Positions 5,803 through 31,290 of a DNA stretch of 64,000 nucleotides are shown in pieces. The position numbers were made by a program, and so were the translations under genes. Under the pieces are notes generated by a model. The model saw nothing but the letters and a program-made list of their open reading frames with translations, did no database searches and had not been told where the DNA came from. The first letter of the stretch is position 1; every line of letters begins with the position of its first letter. The DNA comes from Trichomonas vaginalis G3 (taxonomy: Eukaryota > Parabasalia > Trichomonadida > Trichomonadidae), in the NCBI RefSeq assembly GCF_026262505.1, contig NC_067204.1, positions 4,559,797-4,623,796 of the forward strand, given 5' to 3'.

Positions 5803-7500
5803 TTTATTAAAAATAAAATTTTAAATTGTATTAAATAAATGGCATACAACATCCATTTTCACAACATACAGCCTTAGTGTGTGCTCCTGTTAATGCAGTC
5901 TTACCGATTGTTAAGCGAGTCATTGACCCGTTTTTAAGTTGTAAATTAATATTCTGACCATCAAATATCACTTTATCATTTATTATATCCAAATAATTTT
6001 TAGGTGTTAATTGTTTATTTTGTCGTAAACTAACACCTTTCATTTTTTGTGCAATCTTTTTAAAATCACTTCCATCAATTGAACCGTTGAATGATGTATA
6101 ACACTTAGGGCATAAAGCAACCATGTTATCACCTTGTTTCTCAATTGCTAAACCCAATAACTTCTTCTCATGTGCTTTTTCTTCAGCTTTATTCTTTAAT
6201 TTAGGTTTAAATTTCTCATCAAAACAGAAGAAATCAAATGGTGCGAATTTGAAAATGTTTTTATCATAAAATTGTTTATCGGTAACAATTGCTTGAAATG
6301 CTTGAGTGTTAGGAAGACTTGGATCGCCAGCAATAGCCCAATAAGATGAATCAGTATCACCTTCAATGAAATGAAAACGATTAACATCCATGCATTTATA
6401 CATAAAATCATAAATGAAAACCAAATACCAGTATTTAGCATTATCTAAAGTGAAGAATGCCTCTTGTAAACATGTATCACATCTATAAAATCTATCTTTA
6501 AGCATCACTTGATATGTATCCTCACCTATTTCTCTTATGTTTTTAAACTTATTTGACATACATGCAACGCGTGCCTTCTGTGCATTCATTATTTTAGTCT
6601 TTGCGTAATTTTGTGTATTCATTGCATCGTAACCATATGATCCATTAAGCGAAATCTTGCAAAATAAACTTTTTCCTTTATTTCCTTCTAATTCAGCCTT
6701 TTGTCTTTCGTTCATAAATTCGTTCGCAAATTCATTAAAGCAAGTGTTTTTCGTAAATGTTAAAATTGATTGAATATCATCGATGATAAAATGAAATCTG
6801 TCTATTAGATACCAAAGATAATAATAAGAAAATGGTTGATATTGGTTGTGTGTTGATGCTAACTGAGTTAATTTCCTCTGTTTCTGGTCAACCGGTAGAT
6901 TGTTTGATTTCATGTAATTATACATAAAACTGCCAATTGTTTTTTCATCTGTGATAATATCTAAGTTTCTTATTATCGGTAAAAAGTTTATGTAATCATT
7001 AATGTATTTTTCATCAATGTGACCCTTTACTTCAGCCACGAATAAAGTATTTTTCTTCTTAATTATTCCCAGTGCTTTTGCTTTCTTTGTTGCTGTATCA
7101 CAAATGATAACACCATTCAATCTTCCCGGCATATACATTTTATGGTCAGTATATTGAATGAAATCATGAGGATTAGATGAAAATGATGAAGGATATAATG
7201 AATTAAAATCAACACCAACGAAATGAGTCATGATGTTGGAAGTGTCCTCATTTGATACAGTTTTAGTTTCTGGACTATATGAAAGTTTATTAATGTGCGT
7301 GATTCCTTTAAGATTTACTCTATGTTGAACATTTGATAAACCACCAGTAATTCCATTACGGAGAATGTGATAAGCTTCAACTGAATCTAAAGTCATTGGT
7401 AAATTATTTTTTAATGTATAATTTCTTAAATTGATTCTTAAACGTTGAACATCTTCATCTTTATTTGATTTTACGACATTGCAATAACAACACATTAACT

Positions 7501-8320
7501 TGTAATGCATGAAAATTCGGTTCACTTCATTTTTGACACTTTACATATCGGATGTATTATCTAAGAATTATATTATAAAATAATAATTTTGTGTTTTATA
7601 AGTTTATTTGTATAAATTGATTCAAAAAAAATGGAAAGACAAGAAGTGGATCTGCCAAATGAAAATCAGTTTTTGAACTTTGTATAAGGAATTGTTGGCT
7701 ATGATGTACTGATCATGAATCAGTACATCATAGCCAACAATTCCTTCCCAAACAGCGGGAAACTTTGTCTGAATAGTTTAACATTCAGACAAAGTTTCCG
7801 CTGTCAGAGAGGGAATGGAAGGGTAAGAGGTATATATTCATAATGTATACCTCTTACCCTTTCATTCCCTCGAGAAAGTTCAAAAACTTGGGTGCAATCA
7901 GTTCTGATTGCACCCAAGTTTTTGAACTTTGTATAAGGAATTGTTGGCTATGATGTACTGATCATGAATCAGTACATCATAGCCAACAATTCCTTCCCAA
8001 ACAGCGGGAAACTTTGTCTGATTCCACACTAATTTTATTAATTTATCTAAACTTTTATCCTCGTCTACAATTTAATCATCAATAATTATCTCTTGTTCTA
8101 TTTCACTATTATATATATATATATTTATATGATTTGATTTAAAAAAAATAAATAAATTAATAAATCATTTACTCAAATATATCAAAAGTTTTATTTTTAT
8201 ATATAAAGATAACTACTTTTAAAAAAATACCCTATATATTTTGCCAAGTAAACTATTTTTGTCATGTAAACTTGTCACTTTTTGTCAGAAGTGAAGTGAA
8301 CCGAATTTTCATGCACAACA
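7501..8320. mobile_element. 820-bp non-autonomous transposon with a hairpin array
   Basis: Ends are inverted repeats of about 40 bp: both start TGT..TGCATGAAAATTCGG (left 7,501, right end 8,320 on the opposite strand) and run to a GACA block. It is flanked by the 15-mer AACAACACATTAACT at 7,486-7,500 and 8,321-8,335; in the polymerase gene the 15-mer should occur once. A 13-15 bp duplication is longer than in common eukaryotic DNA transposon families (2-11 bp). There is no transposase; the only start-like ORF is an 18-codon stub at 7,631 (MERQEVDLPNENQFLNFV). The interior is dominated by hairpins described separately. Confidence 0.8.
7668..8021. repeat. Array of near-perfect hairpins and a 105-bp direct repeat
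   Basis: Five adjacent fold-backs. A: 28-bp perfect stem 7,686-7,713 with 7,719-7,746, loop CATGA. B: 7,752-7,774 with 7,783-7,804, about 22 bp with one bulge. C: 7,811-7,834 with 7,846-7,869, 24 bp with one G-T pair. D: 7,878-7,901 with 7,904-7,927, 24-bp perfect stem with a 2-base centre. A again at 7,935-7,962 with 7,968-7,995. The segment 7,668-7,772 is repeated exactly 249 bp later at 7,917-8,021, giving a second A and half of B. Each stem has a different sequence. Confidence 0.9.
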
Positions 8321-10181
8321 AACAACACATTAACTGACAATTTTCTTTGGTATGTGGTTTTTCATTATCGATTCTATCCAATGTTGGTTTATTTGCATAT
8401 GTAAACGCTTTACCACACATTTTGCATTTAGATGAAAGGATTAAATCGTGATAGTATTGAAAATCATCCATTGAAACATCATTTTTAGTATCTCTTTCTG
8501 CTTTTTCATCTTGTTTCTTATATGATTCAATTTTATATTTCCAATACTTTTTCGTTAATTCAAAACTTGATTCTATCTCTTCCTCAGGATATTTTTCATT
8601 AGGATTAAAGTCTTTATATGCTAAAGCGTAACGAATCATTGAAGCATTCGATGATAAAGAAAGATTATGGAGCATATCAATTTTATAAACAAATGTTTCT
8701 TCAATAATTTTATCAATTGGGTCAATCATAATTTCAACATCTTTATTGCAATAATGAATAAAATATTCTAATCTATTCTTAAAATTTTTAGCATCATTGA
8801 GATATATTTGATAATCACTATCTGATATAGTTTCTTGAGTTAATGCTGAATAAAATGAATCTTGAGTGAATGGTTCCACTTTATATAATTCTTCTTCGTA
8901 ATTTTCCCACGTGATAAATTGATAAGGGAAAAAGGATTTAACACGTGTTTTATTATTTCCGAAATCTTGAGTGAATTGATCTAATGTTCCACCCGCTATA
9001 TAATTTCTGATGTCAATAAATCTTAATTCATATGGAACGTTTGTTTTCTTTACAATGATTTGCTTAAATTGTGAAGATGAACCCAGCATTGATTTTATTT
9101 TCCATTTTGCAGTGTTTAAATCACGAAGAATTAAATTTAAATCAAACTTTCCCGAATTAAAACCTATGATATTCACTTTATTGAATTCCTCATCTAGAAG
9201 TTCTTTAAATGCTTCCTTCTGTTTTTCATTTAATGTATGGGACAAAGTCCCCGCCGTTTGCGGCTTCAATAATTCATCGTATTGACTCATATTTGATTTA
9301 GCAACTAATGAACAGGTTGAAAATAAAAATTCAATCCAATCAGAAATAAAAGAATCACTCGAAGTTAAACAAAAATTCCTCGTATATGTTTTATCATTTA
9401 ATTTAACCGTTGATGATACCATGAATGGTTTTAAGTAAGCGTTCAAAGTTGCACACTCAGAAAGTTGTAATTCTTCTTTAGTCTCTAATGTTTCGAAGTC
9501 AAAAGTAATATAATATCTTGTCGGTTTATAATATTTCTGCAAATTGTGAGCTAATAACCACTGATATATCTTCTGTTTCGTAATATGTGGTGCATATGGT
9601 TGCTGGGTCTTTTGCAATTGAACGTCTTGAATTAATCTTCCATTATTTTCTTTACATTTCTCACAATGCTTTAAAAATCTTCTTTGGTTTTTCCTTTCTG
9701 GACCATCACGGATAGAATAAACTTCTTCTTTACAATATGGACAAACTTTATAGCCGGTGAGTGCTTCAACGTCTGTTATTCTGTCAGCGTGAAGTTTTCC
9801 ACATGGACTCTGTGTTAATAAAATATTTACTGTTTCAAATTCTGGATCTATCATTATTGAATCCACTAATGGAAAGTCTACCTTATTTATGTCCACCTCT
9901 TCTGGTTGAGGATCACAATAATAGAAATCAATATTAACATTTAACATTCTCGCTAATCTCTCACTTTCTGATGAAATGTCAAACCCTTCATATGCATCTA
10001 TTGCTTCATTTAAATAGCTTCTACGAGTTTTAGGATTAACACCATCAGGAATGTTATAGAAGCGTTTAAATAACCTTCTACCTTCTGCTCTAATTTGATT
10101 ATCATTCATTTTAGCTGTTCCGTTTTTGTTCATTTATGTAAGAATAAAAAATTAAAAAATAAATAAAAATAAAGTTTATTT

Positions 10182-12368: not shown

Positions 12369-13557
12369 AAGGGTTTCGTTTTGCTAAAATTGTCACTTTT
12401 ATAGCATATTTGTTTTTGGATGTTTTGCGAAACCAAAAAAAAACTATGATATACAATGTGTGTGTAAAGAAAATACTTTATTTACTAGTTAAAAAATCAT
12501 TTGGTATTGATCAAGTTATTTTTTCTGGATAAGATATTATATGGATAATTGGATAGAAAATACAATTATATAATCTTGTACCTGGTTTAATTAAGCTAAT
12601 TGTCATCAAAAACTTGTAATTTTTATGAATTTCAGATTTTCTTTTCATTACTGCTTTTCTTAATAGGTCAAGTTCTTATTTACGTTATAAAGTATGATAT
12701 TTACAAATATCAAGTTATCATGTTTTTTGAGAAATTATGAGAAACAAACAAAAATGAAAAAGATAGGAATAGCAATGAATAGTGATGTGGGTATAGAAAA
12801 TGTAAGAGATATGAATGCAAAGCAATCAGTATTTAGGATATTGACCATAGTAAAATATATGTTTAAACCAACTTATATTTTGGTTGTACACCACTTGTAT
12901 GTGCCGGATACCATTGTGTCAAATTTTTTCTGAAATTAACTTTAAAAGTACTAAGTAAGATCATGAGATATAGCAATATATGTTTAAACCAACTTATATT
13001 TTGGTTGTACACCACTTGTATGTGCCGGATACCATTGTGTCAAATTTTTTCTGAAATTAACTTTAAAAGTACTAAGTAAGATCATGAGATATAGCAATAT
13101 ATGTTTAAACCAACTTATATTTTGGTTGTACACCACTTGTATGTGCCGGATACCATTGTGTCAAATTTTTTCTGAAATTAACTTTAAAAGTACTAAGTAA
13201 GATCATGAGATATAGCAATATATGTTTAAACCAACTTATATTTTGGTTGTACACCACTTGTATGTGCCGGATACCATTGTGTCAAATTTTTTCTGAAATT
13301 AACTTTAAAAGTACTAAGTACGATCATTTATTTTTGCATAATATAATGCCAATATGGTTTCTTTTGATTTTATTTCATTTATAAGCAAATCAGATTTACC
13401 CAAAAACTCCACTCCATAAGCGTTCATTTGCTAAATTAAAAAGTGACAATGGGCTAGTCTGTCCCTTTCTCGAGTGGAGTCAAAGGTCGAAATTGCTAGC
13501 TAAATGTTTTTTAGCGAAATTGCGTATTGTACGTTTTTTTCGCAAAACGAAACCCTT
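12369..13557. mobile_element. Non-autonomous Mutator-like element, 1,189 bp
   Basis: Perfect 16-bp terminal inverted repeats AAGGGTTTCGTTTTGC (12,369-12,384 and the complement ending at 13,557), flanked on both sides by the 9-mer ATTTCTAAT (12,360-12,368 and 13,558-13,566). A 9-bp target duplication is typical of Mutator-like elements. There is no transposase; the interior holds 121-bp tandem repeats. It has inserted into the 3' end of the gene at 13,480-14,130. Confidence 0.82.
12855..13320 (+). repeat. 121-bp tandem repeat, about 3.9 copies
   Basis: The motif GTTTAAACCAAC recurs at 12,861, 12,982, 13,103 and 13,224, exactly 121 bp apart, and the copies look identical by eye. Each unit contains GTACACCACTTG and ends AAAAGTACTAAGTA. 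The array is internal to the Mutator-like element. Confidence 0.95.
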
Positions 13558-15735: not shown

Positions 15736-16626
15736 ATGAATCCAACAGATGAATCATATGCTAAGATTAAAAATATCATCATAAAAGATATTGTTGATGC
15801 TGATGAACACATGGTAGTGTATTTAGTTTATGATCCTCATTATGAAACGCACTTTGCTCTGAAAGTAATTCCTGAAAATCGTTTTCGTCAATCAGAAATC
15901 AATCTAATGAACGAAATTGATGATCCTTCAATTGTTCGAATGTATAATTACGAGCACTATGAAGGATTTATCTACATTTTATACGAATTTTGCCAAGCCT
16001 CATTATATTCCATTATCAAACAAAAGAATTACTTAGATGGTGATAATTTAATCCGCTATTCATGCGGTATTCTGAAGGCAATTCAAGCATGTCAGAATAA
16101 TAAAATCGCTCATTTAGACATAAAGCCAGAAAACATACTTCTTGATGATTATGATAGGATAAAGATATGCGATTTTGGCCTTAGCATCAAATACGAAAAC
16201 AAGGACACAGAACTTCACTATGGTGGCTCAATCCCATTCATTGCTCCAGAAATATTAGACATGAAGCCATATAATCCATTTAAAGCAGATATATGGTCAA
16301 TAGGTGTCACATTTTTTGTTATGGCAACCGGATTTTTCCCTTGGATCGGAGCTGATGAAACAGAATTGTGTCAAAATACTTTGCACAAGAAACCACAGCT
16401 AGAACTTATTAGAAATCATGAATTTCAAAAAGTTATTGGTTGCTGTCTATCCAAAAACCCCGAAGAGAGACCAACAGTTGATCAATTACTTAATATGGCC
16501 ATATTTAGGCAAAATTCTCTCTCAAATCAGGCTTTACCAACGATTCTCCCAAGATTATATAATGCTAGACCTCGTATAAAACATACCACATGTATATTCA
16601 AAACGCCAAAAAGAAATTCACTTTAA
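15736..16626 (+). CDS. Serine/threonine protein kinase, small, CAMK-like
   Basis: A 296-residue single-domain kinase. Visible motifs are the VAIK-type lysine in FALKVI (Lys43), catalytic loop HLDIKPENIL (Asp128), CDFG (146-148), FIAPE (about 168-172), DIWSIGV, and a final ERP. The glycine-rich loop is absent: the segment is VDADEHMVVYLVY, so nucleotide binding may be altered. HLD replaces the usual HRD. Short, divergent kinases of this sort form a large family in trichomonads. There is no signal or membrane segment, so it is probably cytosolic. The ATG lies just downstream of a TCATTA initiator-like motif. Confidence 0.95.
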   Translation: MNPTDESYAKIKNIIIKDIVDADEHMVVYLVYDPHYETHFALKVIPENRFRQSEINLMNEIDDPSIVRMYNYEHYEGFIYILYEFCQASLYSIIKQKNYLDGDNLIRYSCGILKAIQACQNNKIAHLDIKPENILLDDYDRIKICDFGLSIKYENKDTELHYGGSIPFIAPEILDMKPYNPFKADIWSIGVTFFVMATGFFPWIGADETELCQNTLHKKPQLELIRNHEFQKVIGCCLSKNPEERPTVDQLLNMAIFRQNSLSNQALPTILPRLYNARPRIKHTTCIFKTPKRNSL

Positions 16627-27683: not shown

Positions 27684-29361
27684 GTGTGCAGTGATATCAA
27701 ATATAAAAGAAATTTTATTTATGAATTCAATAAATTATATAAACGGATGATATATCAATTCCAAGAAGAACAAAGATTACGCATTAATGCATTTCCTAAA
27801 GTTTTGAAGATTGGAAGATTTAATTTAAATGAGGAATTCATAAAAGGTTTCCTAAACGACATAATGAAGAAAGCAGATAAGGAATATGTTAATGGTGAAT
27901 TAATGAAGAAAGCAGATAAGGAATATGTTAATGGTGAAATAATGAAGAAAGCAGATAGGAATATGTTAATGTGAATTAATGAAGAAAGCAGATAAGGAAT
28001 ATGTTAATGGTGAATTAATGAAGAAAGCAGATAAGGAATATGTTAATGGTGAATTAATGAAGAAAGCAGATAAGGAATATGTTAATGGTGAATTAATGAA
28101 GAAAGCAGATAAAACTTATGTTAATGGTGAGTTAATGAAGAAAGCAAATTTGGTTTATGTTGATGAAAAAGATAATGAAATTAAAGAAAGGGTTGAATGG
28201 TATCACGAATGGACATCAAAGATTTTTAAAACTAAAGCTGATACAGGATGGGTTTCAGGATGTTTAGACCTTAAAGCAGATAAAACTTATGTTAATGATG
28301 AGTTAGAGAAGAAAGCAGATAAAACATATGTTAACGAAATATACCAAAGTTTGATAGGAACAACTAAAAATATTGAAACTATTGTTGGTGACTTTTCTGT
28401 CGATGAAGAAAATAAATATTTTAGATGGCAGTTTGTACACTCCTTAAAAAATGGTATACGATGTAAACTCATTCCGAAAAATAACAATGAAATGTATGTA
28501 AGCTATAAAAAGAATGACGGAACACAAGTTAAAGTTCCATTAGACAACAACTGTTACATAAACTTATATGAAGACGAACAAAAGAAATATTTAAGAGTTT
28601 ATGAAATGGCAGATATGACATTGCCTGACCCAGCTCCAGCACCATATTATTATGACTATGGAGATGACGATAGAACACCACATGTAGATGAACAAAAGTT
28701 AACATTATATTTAGATTATTATAGATATAAAAGATATAATGCAATAGAAAAAACGAGAATAGTATATTATTATACAGATGACAAAAATAAATATTATAGT
28801 CAAGATTTTACCTACCCTGAAAACATAAGATTATATTATAAAAAATATTCTGACACAAACCAGAAGAAACCTGAAATAGTTGCACTATATTTTAAGTTCA
28901 AAATAGACAATCCTATATTATCTCATATGTTTGATTTAATGAACCCAGTAGGTTCTATTTATACATCTATGGATGCAAGAGGTCCTCAAGTAATGTTTGG
29001 TGTTGGTGCATGGGAACAAATAGTCGACAGGTTTTTGTATTGTGCAAACTCTTCAAAGGAAACAGGTGGAAGTAAAACAATTACAGGCGAAAATTTACCT
29101 GCACACAGTCACTACATAGATTTAAGCACATCTCAAGTAGGTTGGCATAAGCATAGATATTGGGATTGGTCAGGAATGACAAAAGGTAAAGGATATGATG
29201 TTAAAGACGACGTTAAGTTTGCTATAAATTGTTACTGGAGTGACACTCAGGGAGAAGGAAACCATACACATTTCGTTTCAGGATATACACAAACAACGGG
29301 ACAAAGTAAAGAATACATGCCACCTTACATGACTGTTTACGCATGGTATAGAATTCAATGA
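27684..29361 (+). pseudogene. Tail-fibre-like protein, long, one frameshift in the repeat stalk
   Basis: Phage-type fibre: a stalk of MKKADKEYVNGEL repeats, then VEWYHEWTSKIFKTKADTGW, a middle section unique to this copy (VDEENKYFRWQFVHSLKNG ... ), and the conserved tip GSIYTSM, FGVGAWEQIVDRFLYC, ENLPAHSHYI, GWHKHR, NHTHF, YMPPYMTVYAWY. Two one-base losses in the third repeat (27,942-27,978) split it into 27,684-27,974 and 27,979-29,361. The 27,684 end of the first piece is a GTG, so the true start is uncertain; an internal ATG is at about 27,748. The three His-x-His pairs suggest a metal-bound trimeric tip for receptor binding. Confidence 0.82.
27864..28160 (+). repeat. 39-bp coding tandem repeat, about 8 copies
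   Basis: In-frame 13-residue units MKKADKEYVNGEL starting at 27,864, 27,903, 27,942 (37 bp, broken), 27,979, 28,018, 28,057, 28,096 and 28,135. They form the fibre stalk and recall phage tail repeats. Copies are almost identical, so slippage could change stalk length. Confidence 0.95.
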
Positions 29362-29660: not shown

Positions 29661-31290
29661 CACTGCTACCATGTTACCATGTGCTACCAGGTTATTCAAC
29701 TTCTCTGAAAAATGATGACAACATGACATTTTGACAACAACATAGAAATATATTTTATCGTTAATGTTTTCGTTAATGTTTTCAGGTTATTCAATTATGA
29801 ATTATTTTTGAAGAACTGAAGGTGCTACCATGTTACCATGTGCTACCAGGTTATTCAACTTCTCTGAAAAATGATGACCACATGACATTTTGACAACATG
29901 ACATTATAACAACATCACTGGGGAAGGCAATTATGAATTATTTTTGAAGAACTGAAGGTGCTACCATGTTACCATGTGCTACCAGGTTATTCAACTTCTC
30001 TGAAAAATGATGACCACATGACATTTTGACAACATGACATTATAACAACATCACTGGGGAAGGCAATTATGAATTATTTTTGAAGAACTGAAGGTGCTAC
30101 CATGTTACCATGTGCTACCAGGTTATTCAACTTCTCTGAAAAATGATGACCACATGACATTTTGACAACATGACATTATAACAACATCACTGGGGAAGGC
30201 AATTATGAAGCATTATTGAAGAACTGAAGGTGCTACCATGTTACCATGTGCTACCAGGTTATTCAACTTCTCTGAAAAATGATGACCACATGACATTTTG
30301 ACAACATGACATTATAACAACATCACTGGGGGAAGGCAATTATGAATTATTTTTGAAGAACTGAAGGTGCTACCATGTTACCATGTGCTACCAGGTTATT
30401 CAACTTCTCTGAAAAATGATGACAACATGACATTTTGACAACATATTAATGACAACATATTAATGACAACATATTAATGACAACATATTAATGACAACAT
30501 ATTAATGACAACATATTAATGACAACATGACATTATGACAACATGACATTATGACAACATATTAATGACAACATATTAATGACAACATAGATTCTTCAAT
30601 AATATGTTGTCATAATGTCATGTTGTTATAATGTCATGTTGTCAAAATGTCATGTTGTCAAAATGTCATGTTGTCATTAATATGTTGTTATAATGTCATG
30701 TTGTCATAATGTCATGTTGTTATAATGTCATGTTGTCAAAATGTCATGTTGTCAAAATGTCATGTTGTCATTAATATGTTGTTATAATGTCATGTTGTCA
30801 TAATGTCATGTTGTTATAATGTCATGTTGTCAAAATGTCATGTTGTCAAAATGTCATGTTGTTATAATGTCATGTTGTTATAATGTCATGTTGTTATAAT
30901 GTCATGTTGTCATTAATATGTTGTTATAATGTCATGTTGTTATAATGTCATGTTGTTATAATGTCATGTTGTCAAAATGTCATGTTGTTATAATGTCATG
31001 TTGTCATAATGTCATGTTGTCAAAATGTCATGTGGTCATCATTTTTCAGAGAAGTTGAATAACCTGGTAGCACATGGTAACATGGTAGCACCTTCAGTTC
31101 TTCAATAATGCTTCATAATTGCTTCCCCCATTAATGTTTTCAGGTTCTTCAATAATGCTTCATAAATACCTTTCCCCCTATGTTGTTGTCAAAATGTCAT
31201 GTGGTCATCATTTTTCAGAGAAGTTGAATAACCTGGTAGCACATGGTAACATGGTAGCACCTTCAGTTCTTCAATAATGCTTCATAAATG
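29661..31290. repeat. Large imperfect palindrome of iterated short motifs
   Basis: Left arm: six 136-137 bp units containing GGTGCTACCATGTTACC (full-unit starts at 29,821, 29,957, 30,093, 30,229, 30,366) then TGACAACATATTAA 14-mers. The centre is near 30,590-30,605. Right arm: dozens of 16-mers of the type TGTCATGTTGTTATAA / ATGTCATGTTGTCAAA, the complement of the left motif, then inverted copies of the larger unit (GGTAACATGGTAGCACC at about 31,075 and 31,245). No ORF. It lies between the fibre cassette and the helicase gene. Confidence 0.92.

Follow-up and report, generated by a model that had tools for sequence, protein, structure and literature searches.

A non-autonomous transposon of IS481EU type in Trichomonas vaginalis with an interior of tandem, covarying hairpins

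Introduction

The window analysed in this study is the whole stretch of 64,000 nucleotides from Trichomonas vaginalis G3 at positions 4,559,797 to 4,623,796 of contig NC_067204.1 (forward strand). Inside it, an element of 820 bp interrupts a gene and contains a row of long hairpins. What kind of element this is, and how its hairpins came to be there, is the question raised by the locus. Transposons with internal tandem repeats are common, and such repeats can seed satellites, as in Tetris and Helitron-type elements of Drosophila. In bacteria, REP/BIME arrays consist of palindromic units that are dispersed in the genome and linked with transposases.

IS481EU, published in 2023, is a superfamily of parabasalids whose enzyme is IS481-like and whose ends have the form TNT..AYA (PMC10045372). 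In that account, the target duplications measure about 4, about 15, or about 25 bp and are sometimes mixed within one family, the inverted ends are mostly shorter than 50 bp, non-autonomous families exist, and Banshee is probably the same as IS481EU (PMC10045372). Template switching in DNA replication is reported to produce compensatory changes of several bases together with completely inverted loops (PMC8794818). T. vaginalis is reported to have two PIWI-like Argonautes, a Dicer orthologue, and PIWI-type small RNAs of about 34 nt, with a candidate piRNA region on chromosome IV at 14-24 Mb of another assembly (PMC7845603). miRNA was barely detected in this organism, at 0.0046% (PMC7844918). 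In this study, we describe the element, its relatives, and the other carriers of its hairpins, and weigh the explanations for the hairpin row.

Materials and methods

Copies were sought in the 180.85-Mb assembly. L-numbers denote extracted loci and C-numbers denote contigs. The end motif of 23 bases was searched with up to two mismatches, and the reversed pattern served as a control. Fifteen loci around related transposases were scanned for hairpins.

Homologous hairpins were aligned with MAFFT without further constraints (A, 6 sequences; C, 7; D, 4; B, 6). The near duplicates L060, L069, and L072, the second A of L071, the second B of L064, and the C and D of L065 were left out of the alignments. 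The hairpins of L062, L063, and L067 belong in part to copies of the first family (the family of the window element) that lie nearby or are nested, and a single C hairpin of L067 was the only one of them to enter the alignments. Covariation scores were compared with 500 shuffles, and pairing partners slid by 1-3 columns were used as a control.

Variability was determined for pooled array units, which are not independent of one another, and for a set with one right end per element. The latter set held 45 ends that passed the length filter, 44 of which were distinct.

Results

The 820-bp element

The element is bounded by inverted ends and by an exact direct repeat of 15 bp, AACAACACATTAACT (Table 1). 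The inverted arms are 39 nt long and 90% complementary, with 38 nt of each inside the element, in agreement with the ends of about 40 bp given in the preliminary description; the 15-bp target duplication proposed there was also borne out. This duplication had been called unusually long. Since about 15 bp is normal for IS481EU (PMC10045372), its length is no longer odd.

The interrupted gene lies on the minus strand. Its two flanking frames were submitted to Pfam apart: the downstream frame gave a DNA_pol_B_2 match of E 5.4e-5 and 22.7 bits, below the cut-off of 25.8, and the upstream frame gave no match. The window copy retains 13 codons of a transposase gene, which are joined to an arm of the B hairpin with a 2-base overlap at the junction. 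This junction indicates an internal deletion. Judged by comparison with a longer copy, the window element is a deletion product from which nearly all of the transposase gene was lost.

Elsewhere in the window, a frame at 2154-2771 has a baseplate Gp10 C-terminal domain (E 4e-31), an uninterrupted protein kinase frame lies at 15736-16626 (Pkinase, E 4e-47), and tandem arrays with periods of 121, 39, 136 and 14-16 bp lie at 12854-13327, 27862-28146, and 29792-31039.

Table 1. Features of the element and its surroundings (positions in the window; a dot marks features without strand).
Feature	Position	Strand	Description or basis
Whole non-autonomous element, fitting IS481EU type	7501..8320	+ (strand of the lost transposase gene)	820 bp
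Target duplication, left copy	7486..7500	.	15 bp, AACAACACATTAACT
Target duplication, right copy	8321..8335	.	15 bp, AACAACACATTAACT, same as left copy
Left inverted end, TGT...	7501..7538	+	Inverted-repeat and end-motif search
Right inverted end, ...ACA	8283..8320	-	Inverted-repeat and end-motif search
Transposase gene remnant	7631..7669	+	ATG and 12 further codons, ended by internal deletion; comparison with L043:1067 onward
Interrupted gene, downstream part	5831..7525	-	Weak DNA polymerase B match (Pfam)
Interrupted gene, upstream part	8262..10133	-	Without Pfam match
Full tandem unit	7668..7916	+	249 bp, four hairpins; repeat comparison
Hairpin A	7686..7746	.	Perfect 28-bp stem, loop 5 nt
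Hairpin D	7752..7804	.	Inner stem 17 bp and outer pairs, right arm lacking one base, loop 8 nt
Hairpin C	7809..7871	.	Stem 30 bp including two G-T pairs, loop 3 nt
Hairpin B	7875..7930	.	Perfect 27-bp stem, loop 2 nt
Second unit, partial	7917..8021	+	Same as 7668-7772, perfect direct repeat
Second hairpin A	7935..7995	.	Identical to the first; perfect direct repeat
Hairpin D, orphan left half	8001..8021	.	Repeat comparison

The hairpin row

Five consecutive fold-backs had been noticed earlier, and all five were confirmed at the positions in Table 1. They are beyond chance. Six hairpins scoring at least 13 were found in the 64-kb window, five of them inside the element with scores of 17-28; four simulated 64-kb sequences of the same dinucleotide content gave 0-1 such hairpins each, with a best score of 15. 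The RNA fold of one unit had a z of -23.3 against 200 shuffles.

Several particulars of the preliminary description have to be revised. Its statement that each stem has a sequence of its own does not hold, as hairpins 1 and 5 are the same and lie inside a perfect direct repeat of 105 bp, so that the interior amounts to 1.4 copies of a 249-bp unit with four hairpin kinds (B-A-D-C). Three stems rather than two are perfect, and the loops measure 2-8 nt instead of 2-11. The stem range of 22-28 bp stands only in part, as the longest stem measures 30 bp and one base of the second hairpin is unpaired. The remark that the element is unlike an ordinary MITE was correct: the five hairpins are separate and none spans the element, which rules out a one-hairpin MITE. 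A Foldback-type long inverted repeat was also considered and rejected.

Searches of L043, L059, L064, and L071 against known RNA families returned 139 Rfam matches up to E 0.1, none of which attained the gathering score. The sub-threshold miRNA matches, which occurred on both strands, were taken as chance matches of the kind that any hairpin gives.

Family copies and transposase

The end motif had 310 genome matches (159 + 151), and the reversed-pattern control had 0. Mapped copies consist of a left end, an array, and a right end, some being truncated or nested, and the array reaches 20 full units in L041. The ends and arms, whose copy number the preliminary description had proposed to count, are therefore present in many copies, and the stems are not constant between copies but covary between families.

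Target duplications were compared in 43 two-ended elements, three of which belong to related families (L059, L061, L062); the two copies in L040 share one site with copies in L047, so the 43 are not independent insertions. Duplications of 14-16 bp were found in 35 of the 43 (exact 15 bp, 23; 14 bp, 8; 16 bp, 3; 15 bp with a mismatch, 1). Two elements had 5 bp and six had none. In L040 and L047 (C2:10.38-10.42 and 11.05-11.09 Mb), family copies recur every 4.6-4.9 kb or so with one common target duplication. These repeats form a tandem segmental duplication, which also contains a frame of 609 aa that we take to be BspA/LRR-like from its look.

Longer copies of about 2.2 kb (for example, L043:938-3169) have a 310-codon frame between the left end and the array, and the array of these fuller copies lies between the transposase gene and the right end. 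The frame encodes an rve-type DDE enzyme (Pfam rve, 2e-15). Its best NCBIfam match is IS481 (1.8e-33; 116 bits, under the model's cut-off of 224), and it bears a weak similarity to PFV integrase (E about 1e-3). Uninterrupted transposase copies are present, with 129 genome matches (128 of 1617 candidates scored). Among the best 120 of 159 homologues, two are labelled parabasalid (Histomonas meleagridis and Tritrichomonas foetus), the majority are metagenome proteins that lack a name, and a few have bacterial-style names. Two peptide-pattern scans of genome contigs found no prokaryotic relatives, the patterns saying little on IS481 generally. At C4:16.98-17.30 Mb, L059-type transposases (323 aa) stand at steps of about 6.3 kb, and many are identical, as expected of recent tandem amplification.

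The family shares with IS481EU the rve/IS481-like DDE enzyme of its longer copies, ends of the TNT..AYA form (here TGT..ACA), inverted ends below 50 bp (38 bp), and duplications of about 15 bp (14-16 bp) with occasional short ones. By its ends, enzyme, and duplication, the window element fits the IS481EU type. The preliminary description had recognised no described family, and the ends do fit this described superfamily (PMC10045372). With deletion-derived MITEs the element has in common both ends, a lost coding interior, target duplications, and many copies. It differs from one-hairpin MITEs in lacking a spanning hairpin and in that the row of separate hairpins is also found in transposase-bearing copies.

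The tetrad in related families

At least one hairpin was detected in 11 of the 15 related loci. The scan was empty in L066, L068, L070, and L073; the stretches of L070 and L073 span 2.8 kb each and may stop short of the hairpin position. L064, with a transposase stretch 45% identical to that of the first family, has all four hairpins in the order B, A, D, C. L059 and L060 (transposase 46% identical) have A and B together with a C-like hairpin, which was aligned, and L061 and L069 (65% and 64%) have C and B. D, B, and A were found in L065 and A, B, and D in L072, each with C by BLAST; L071 has B, C, D, A, and A and one further hairpin. A second, different satellite at L074 (C1:6906900-6909300) is built of 250-bp units C-B-A-D, which is the same cyclic order. 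The homology of B and D across families is an interpretive reading and was traced partly via intermediates such as L071 and L064. These comparisons establish an inherited module of four hairpins in the cyclic order B-A-D-C, with a unit of about 250 bp and the ability to expand in tandem.

As we read it, with the transposase gene as reference, the cluster runs B-A-D-C cyclically in the first family, L064, and L065, and C-B in L061; it is reversed in L059, L072, and L071. The A arm of the first family has 1069 and 1090 genome matches on the two strands, its B hairpin has 1056, and a B-type hairpin core common to L074, L059, L061, and others has 1005. The B hairpin had 0 matches in viral contigs. 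The L059-type family has its own tandem repeat of about 125 bp after the transposase gene (L059:2517-2826, L070, L073), which is expanded in L070.

Stem changes and loop inversions

Two-sided changes were found in 12 of 28 pairs in A, 11 of 30 in C, 15 of 27 in D, and 17 of 31 in B, or 55 of 116 in total. The control with slid partners gave 0-5 two-sided pairs. The covariation score was matched by 0 of 500 shuffles in all four hairpins, the shuffles ignoring relatedness; for the measure of further pair types, shuffles equalled A in 27 of 500 and C in 42 of 500. Because the aligned hairpins had been selected for folding, the percentage of paired positions is not independent evidence, and the two-sided changes alone count.

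The loops occur in both orientations. In the first family, the B loop is TT in 59 cases and AA in 67, with the rest of the unit keeping its direction. The A loop is CATGA in 135 and TCATG in 25, and the two orientations number 98 and 5 for D and 93 and 6 for C. The 50 exact-match B hairpins listed have either TT or AA in the loop, apart from a single AT. Of the five units of the L074 array, the second and the fifth have D in inverted orientation, and L061 and L069, which belong to the same family, differ by a flip of B. In the last unit of L079 (about 1229-1370), the D hairpin was seen by eye to carry, relative to the neighbouring D hairpins, a change in one arm that is matched in the other, a compensated pair inside a single array.

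Both marks of template switching, two-sided stem changes and inverted loops, are present. From the alignments, it is apparent that the stem arms evolve together and that single hairpins flip in place. Template switching would be the simplest joint account of the two-sided changes and the flips, and repeated fold-back copying, as the preliminary description had it, fits these changes and loops best among the earlier ideas.

Conservation and strand tests

In the pooled array units, which are not independent, stem variability was 0.0145 versus 0.083 in loops and 0.089 in spacers (p = 1.2e-6). With one right end per element, stem A had a variability of 0.0142 versus 0.0154 in the adjoining non-coding end, and the orphan D half-arm was more variable, at 0.0646. 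Variable sites made up 17 of 56 in stem A and 46 of 261 in the non-coding end (p = 0.04), the larger share being in the stem. Stem A is thus not slower than its neighbour when each element is counted by one end, and purifying selection within the family is not claimed.

Mismatches across families showed no significant strand bias (G-T 26 versus A-C 15, p = 0.12). Within the family, there were 12 distinct G-T and 10 distinct A-C changes; weighted by occurrence, the counts were 20 versus 68, in the reverse direction. The two cluster orientations together with the lack of a significant strand bias argue for a process that takes place on the DNA or is indifferent to strand, and against an RNA transcribed along with the transposase.

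Other carriers of the unit

On C1, 14 of the 23 exact A-arm clusters among the first 100 matches listed do not lie within 3 kb of an exact end motif. Four of the C1 clusters (L075, L076, L078, and L079) were examined. The units of L078 and L079 are 96-99% identical to that of the window, and their element has different ends, TATCATAAG.../TGTTGTAAG..., and 4-bp duplications, TGGT and ATGA. Judged by ends and duplication alone, this element fits the 4-bp class of IS481EU. At L079:4-438, a minus-strand transposase-like frame with helix-turn-helix matches and a weak Tc3-type match adjoins the element.

L075 and L076 have units 91-96% identical, plus further hairpins. The units of L076 adjoin a gene piece that gave no clear family when searched alone; the family became clear from its longer relative in L077, a MULE transposase of 559 aa (1e-7, above the cut-off). 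L075 has the first part of this piece. A 190-residue frame of the L076 type was seen by eye in about 80 of the 150 matches listed, and the three on C1 with this frame each stand beside A or B hairpins. The unit is therefore common to different transposons, as it occurs in the family with 15-bp duplications, in the element with 4-bp duplications, and beside MULE sequence. MULE-derived pieces with the 190-residue frame also recur at steps of about 5-6 kb at C2:1.18-2.00 Mb.

Discussion

The best account of the locus, to which we give a probability of about 0.7, is a derivative of an IS481EU-type transposon that carries a passenger hairpin module shaped at the DNA level. In this account, an internal deletion, as the sequence comparison shows, removed nearly all of the transposase gene, and the window element would presumably have been moved in trans by the DDE transposase of about 310 residues of the longer copies. 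Template switching, or an exchange between arms in a cruciform, would most likely copy one arm from the other and invert the loop. The module would be a passenger between transposons; it is located in at least three contexts, which it probably reached via recombination.

An ordinary MITE or an assembly artefact is very improbable. The ends, the size, and the duplication are MITE-like, but the unit stands at numerous independent sites, the duplications of which differ, and copies with a transposase gene have it as well, and an artefact of a single locus is refuted by the other copies. A small-RNA source, in which transcripts of the hairpins would be processed into guides for the silencing or regulation of transposons or genes, is improbable to a lesser degree. 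The long perfect stems and the very stable RNA fold would suit such a source, and Argonautes, a Dicer orthologue, and small RNAs of about 34 nt are reported from this organism (PMC7845603). Moreover, 51 of the 129 transposase matches, many of them tandem duplicates, lie at C4:14-24 Mb, which is 5.5% of the genome; the candidate piRNA region has these coordinates on chromosome IV, to which C4 may or may not correspond. Against guides stand the lack of a strand signature both across families and within the family, the occurrence of the cluster both along and against the direction of the transposase gene, the nearly equal numbers of A arms on the two strands, and the Rfam result. Among the 100 A-arm matches listed, no solitary target was seen; by eye, all were in hairpin pairs or in arrays of about 250 bp. 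The Dicer-type guides suggested by the preliminary description find no support, given small RNAs of PIWI type (PMC7845603) and almost no miRNA (PMC7844918).

The remaining explanations concern why the stems stay paired. That the row is purely a by-product, a neutral tandem repeat caught in a transposon and shaped by template switching alone with no role in its spread, is a serious possibility, somewhat short of an even chance. Flips with compensation are the expected outcome of template switching, stems are not slower than their neighbours within the family, and internal tandem repeats are common in transposons. However, the four homologous hairpins keep their cyclic order at a transposase identity of only 45%, and the unit occurs in several transposon contexts; a neutral accident predicts the order of the tetrad and its sharing less well. 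A further reading, which we take to be less likely than not, is bolder: the tetrad may be a selfish "hairpin satellite" that grows in tandem, keeps its pairing via template switching and selection for folding, and transfers between unrelated transposons (IS481EU-type elements with 15-bp and 4-bp duplications, and MULEs). A structural DNA or RNA element selected because pairing serves its carriers in replication, in binding of the transposase or a host factor, or in protection from silencing is rather unlikely. The hairpin order and the period of about 250 bp kept in diverged families, the two-sided changes in nearly half of the pairs, the low variability of pooled stems relative to loops and spacers, and the greater variability of the orphan half-arm speak for selection. 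The extra conservation of stems disappears with one copy per element, and template switching would account for both compensation and flips with no need of selection (PMC8794818). If the tetrad has a role, our guess, itself doubtful, is a strand-indifferent role of the DNA rather than a guide RNA.

Parts of this picture have counterparts elsewhere. As in Tetris and Helitron-type elements, a tandem array expands inside a non-autonomous element; in the present case, hairpins take up nearly all of the unit, and the stems covary from family to family. REP/BIME arrays are alike in their dispersed palindromic units and their link with transposases, but their sequence and enzyme are unrelated, they belong to another host domain, and their units differ in size. 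With the template-switch hairpins described for RNA genes (PMC8794818), the present hairpins have in common compensatory changes of several bases and completely inverted loops, whereas they form a mobile satellite unit with B orientations near 1:1. TvMULEs are MULE transposons of the same host (PMC2725143), and the unit of L076 lies next to a truncated MULE gene. The main text of the TvMULE paper does not mention a palindrome, hairpin, tandem, stem-loop, satellite, or internal repeat (PMC2725143). The main text on IS481EU does not mention a hairpin, palindrome, tandem, fold-back, or satellite, and its supplement may contain the array unremarked (PMC10045372). Such a hairpin array was not found described in the literature as covered by titles and abstract openings, a search that supplements and most subscription papers fall outside. 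The kind of transposon is known; the non-autonomous member is new, as is the hairpin tetrad as a covarying, flipping, and transferable satellite unit.

The order of the tetrad and its period of about 250 bp persist while the stems are rewritten pair by pair, the loops invert, and the unit is met with in different transposons. If the reading as a selfish satellite is true, carrier transposons take the tetrad through the genome of T. vaginalis. With about a thousand copies for each of two hairpin patterns, one genome offers a large natural series, which can be used to study how long perfect DNA hairpins arise, stay paired, and spread. It also poses the question of whether template switching alone can mimic the covariation that is commonly taken as proof of RNA function. 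If it can, this would be a direct caution for the discovery of structural RNAs in repeats.
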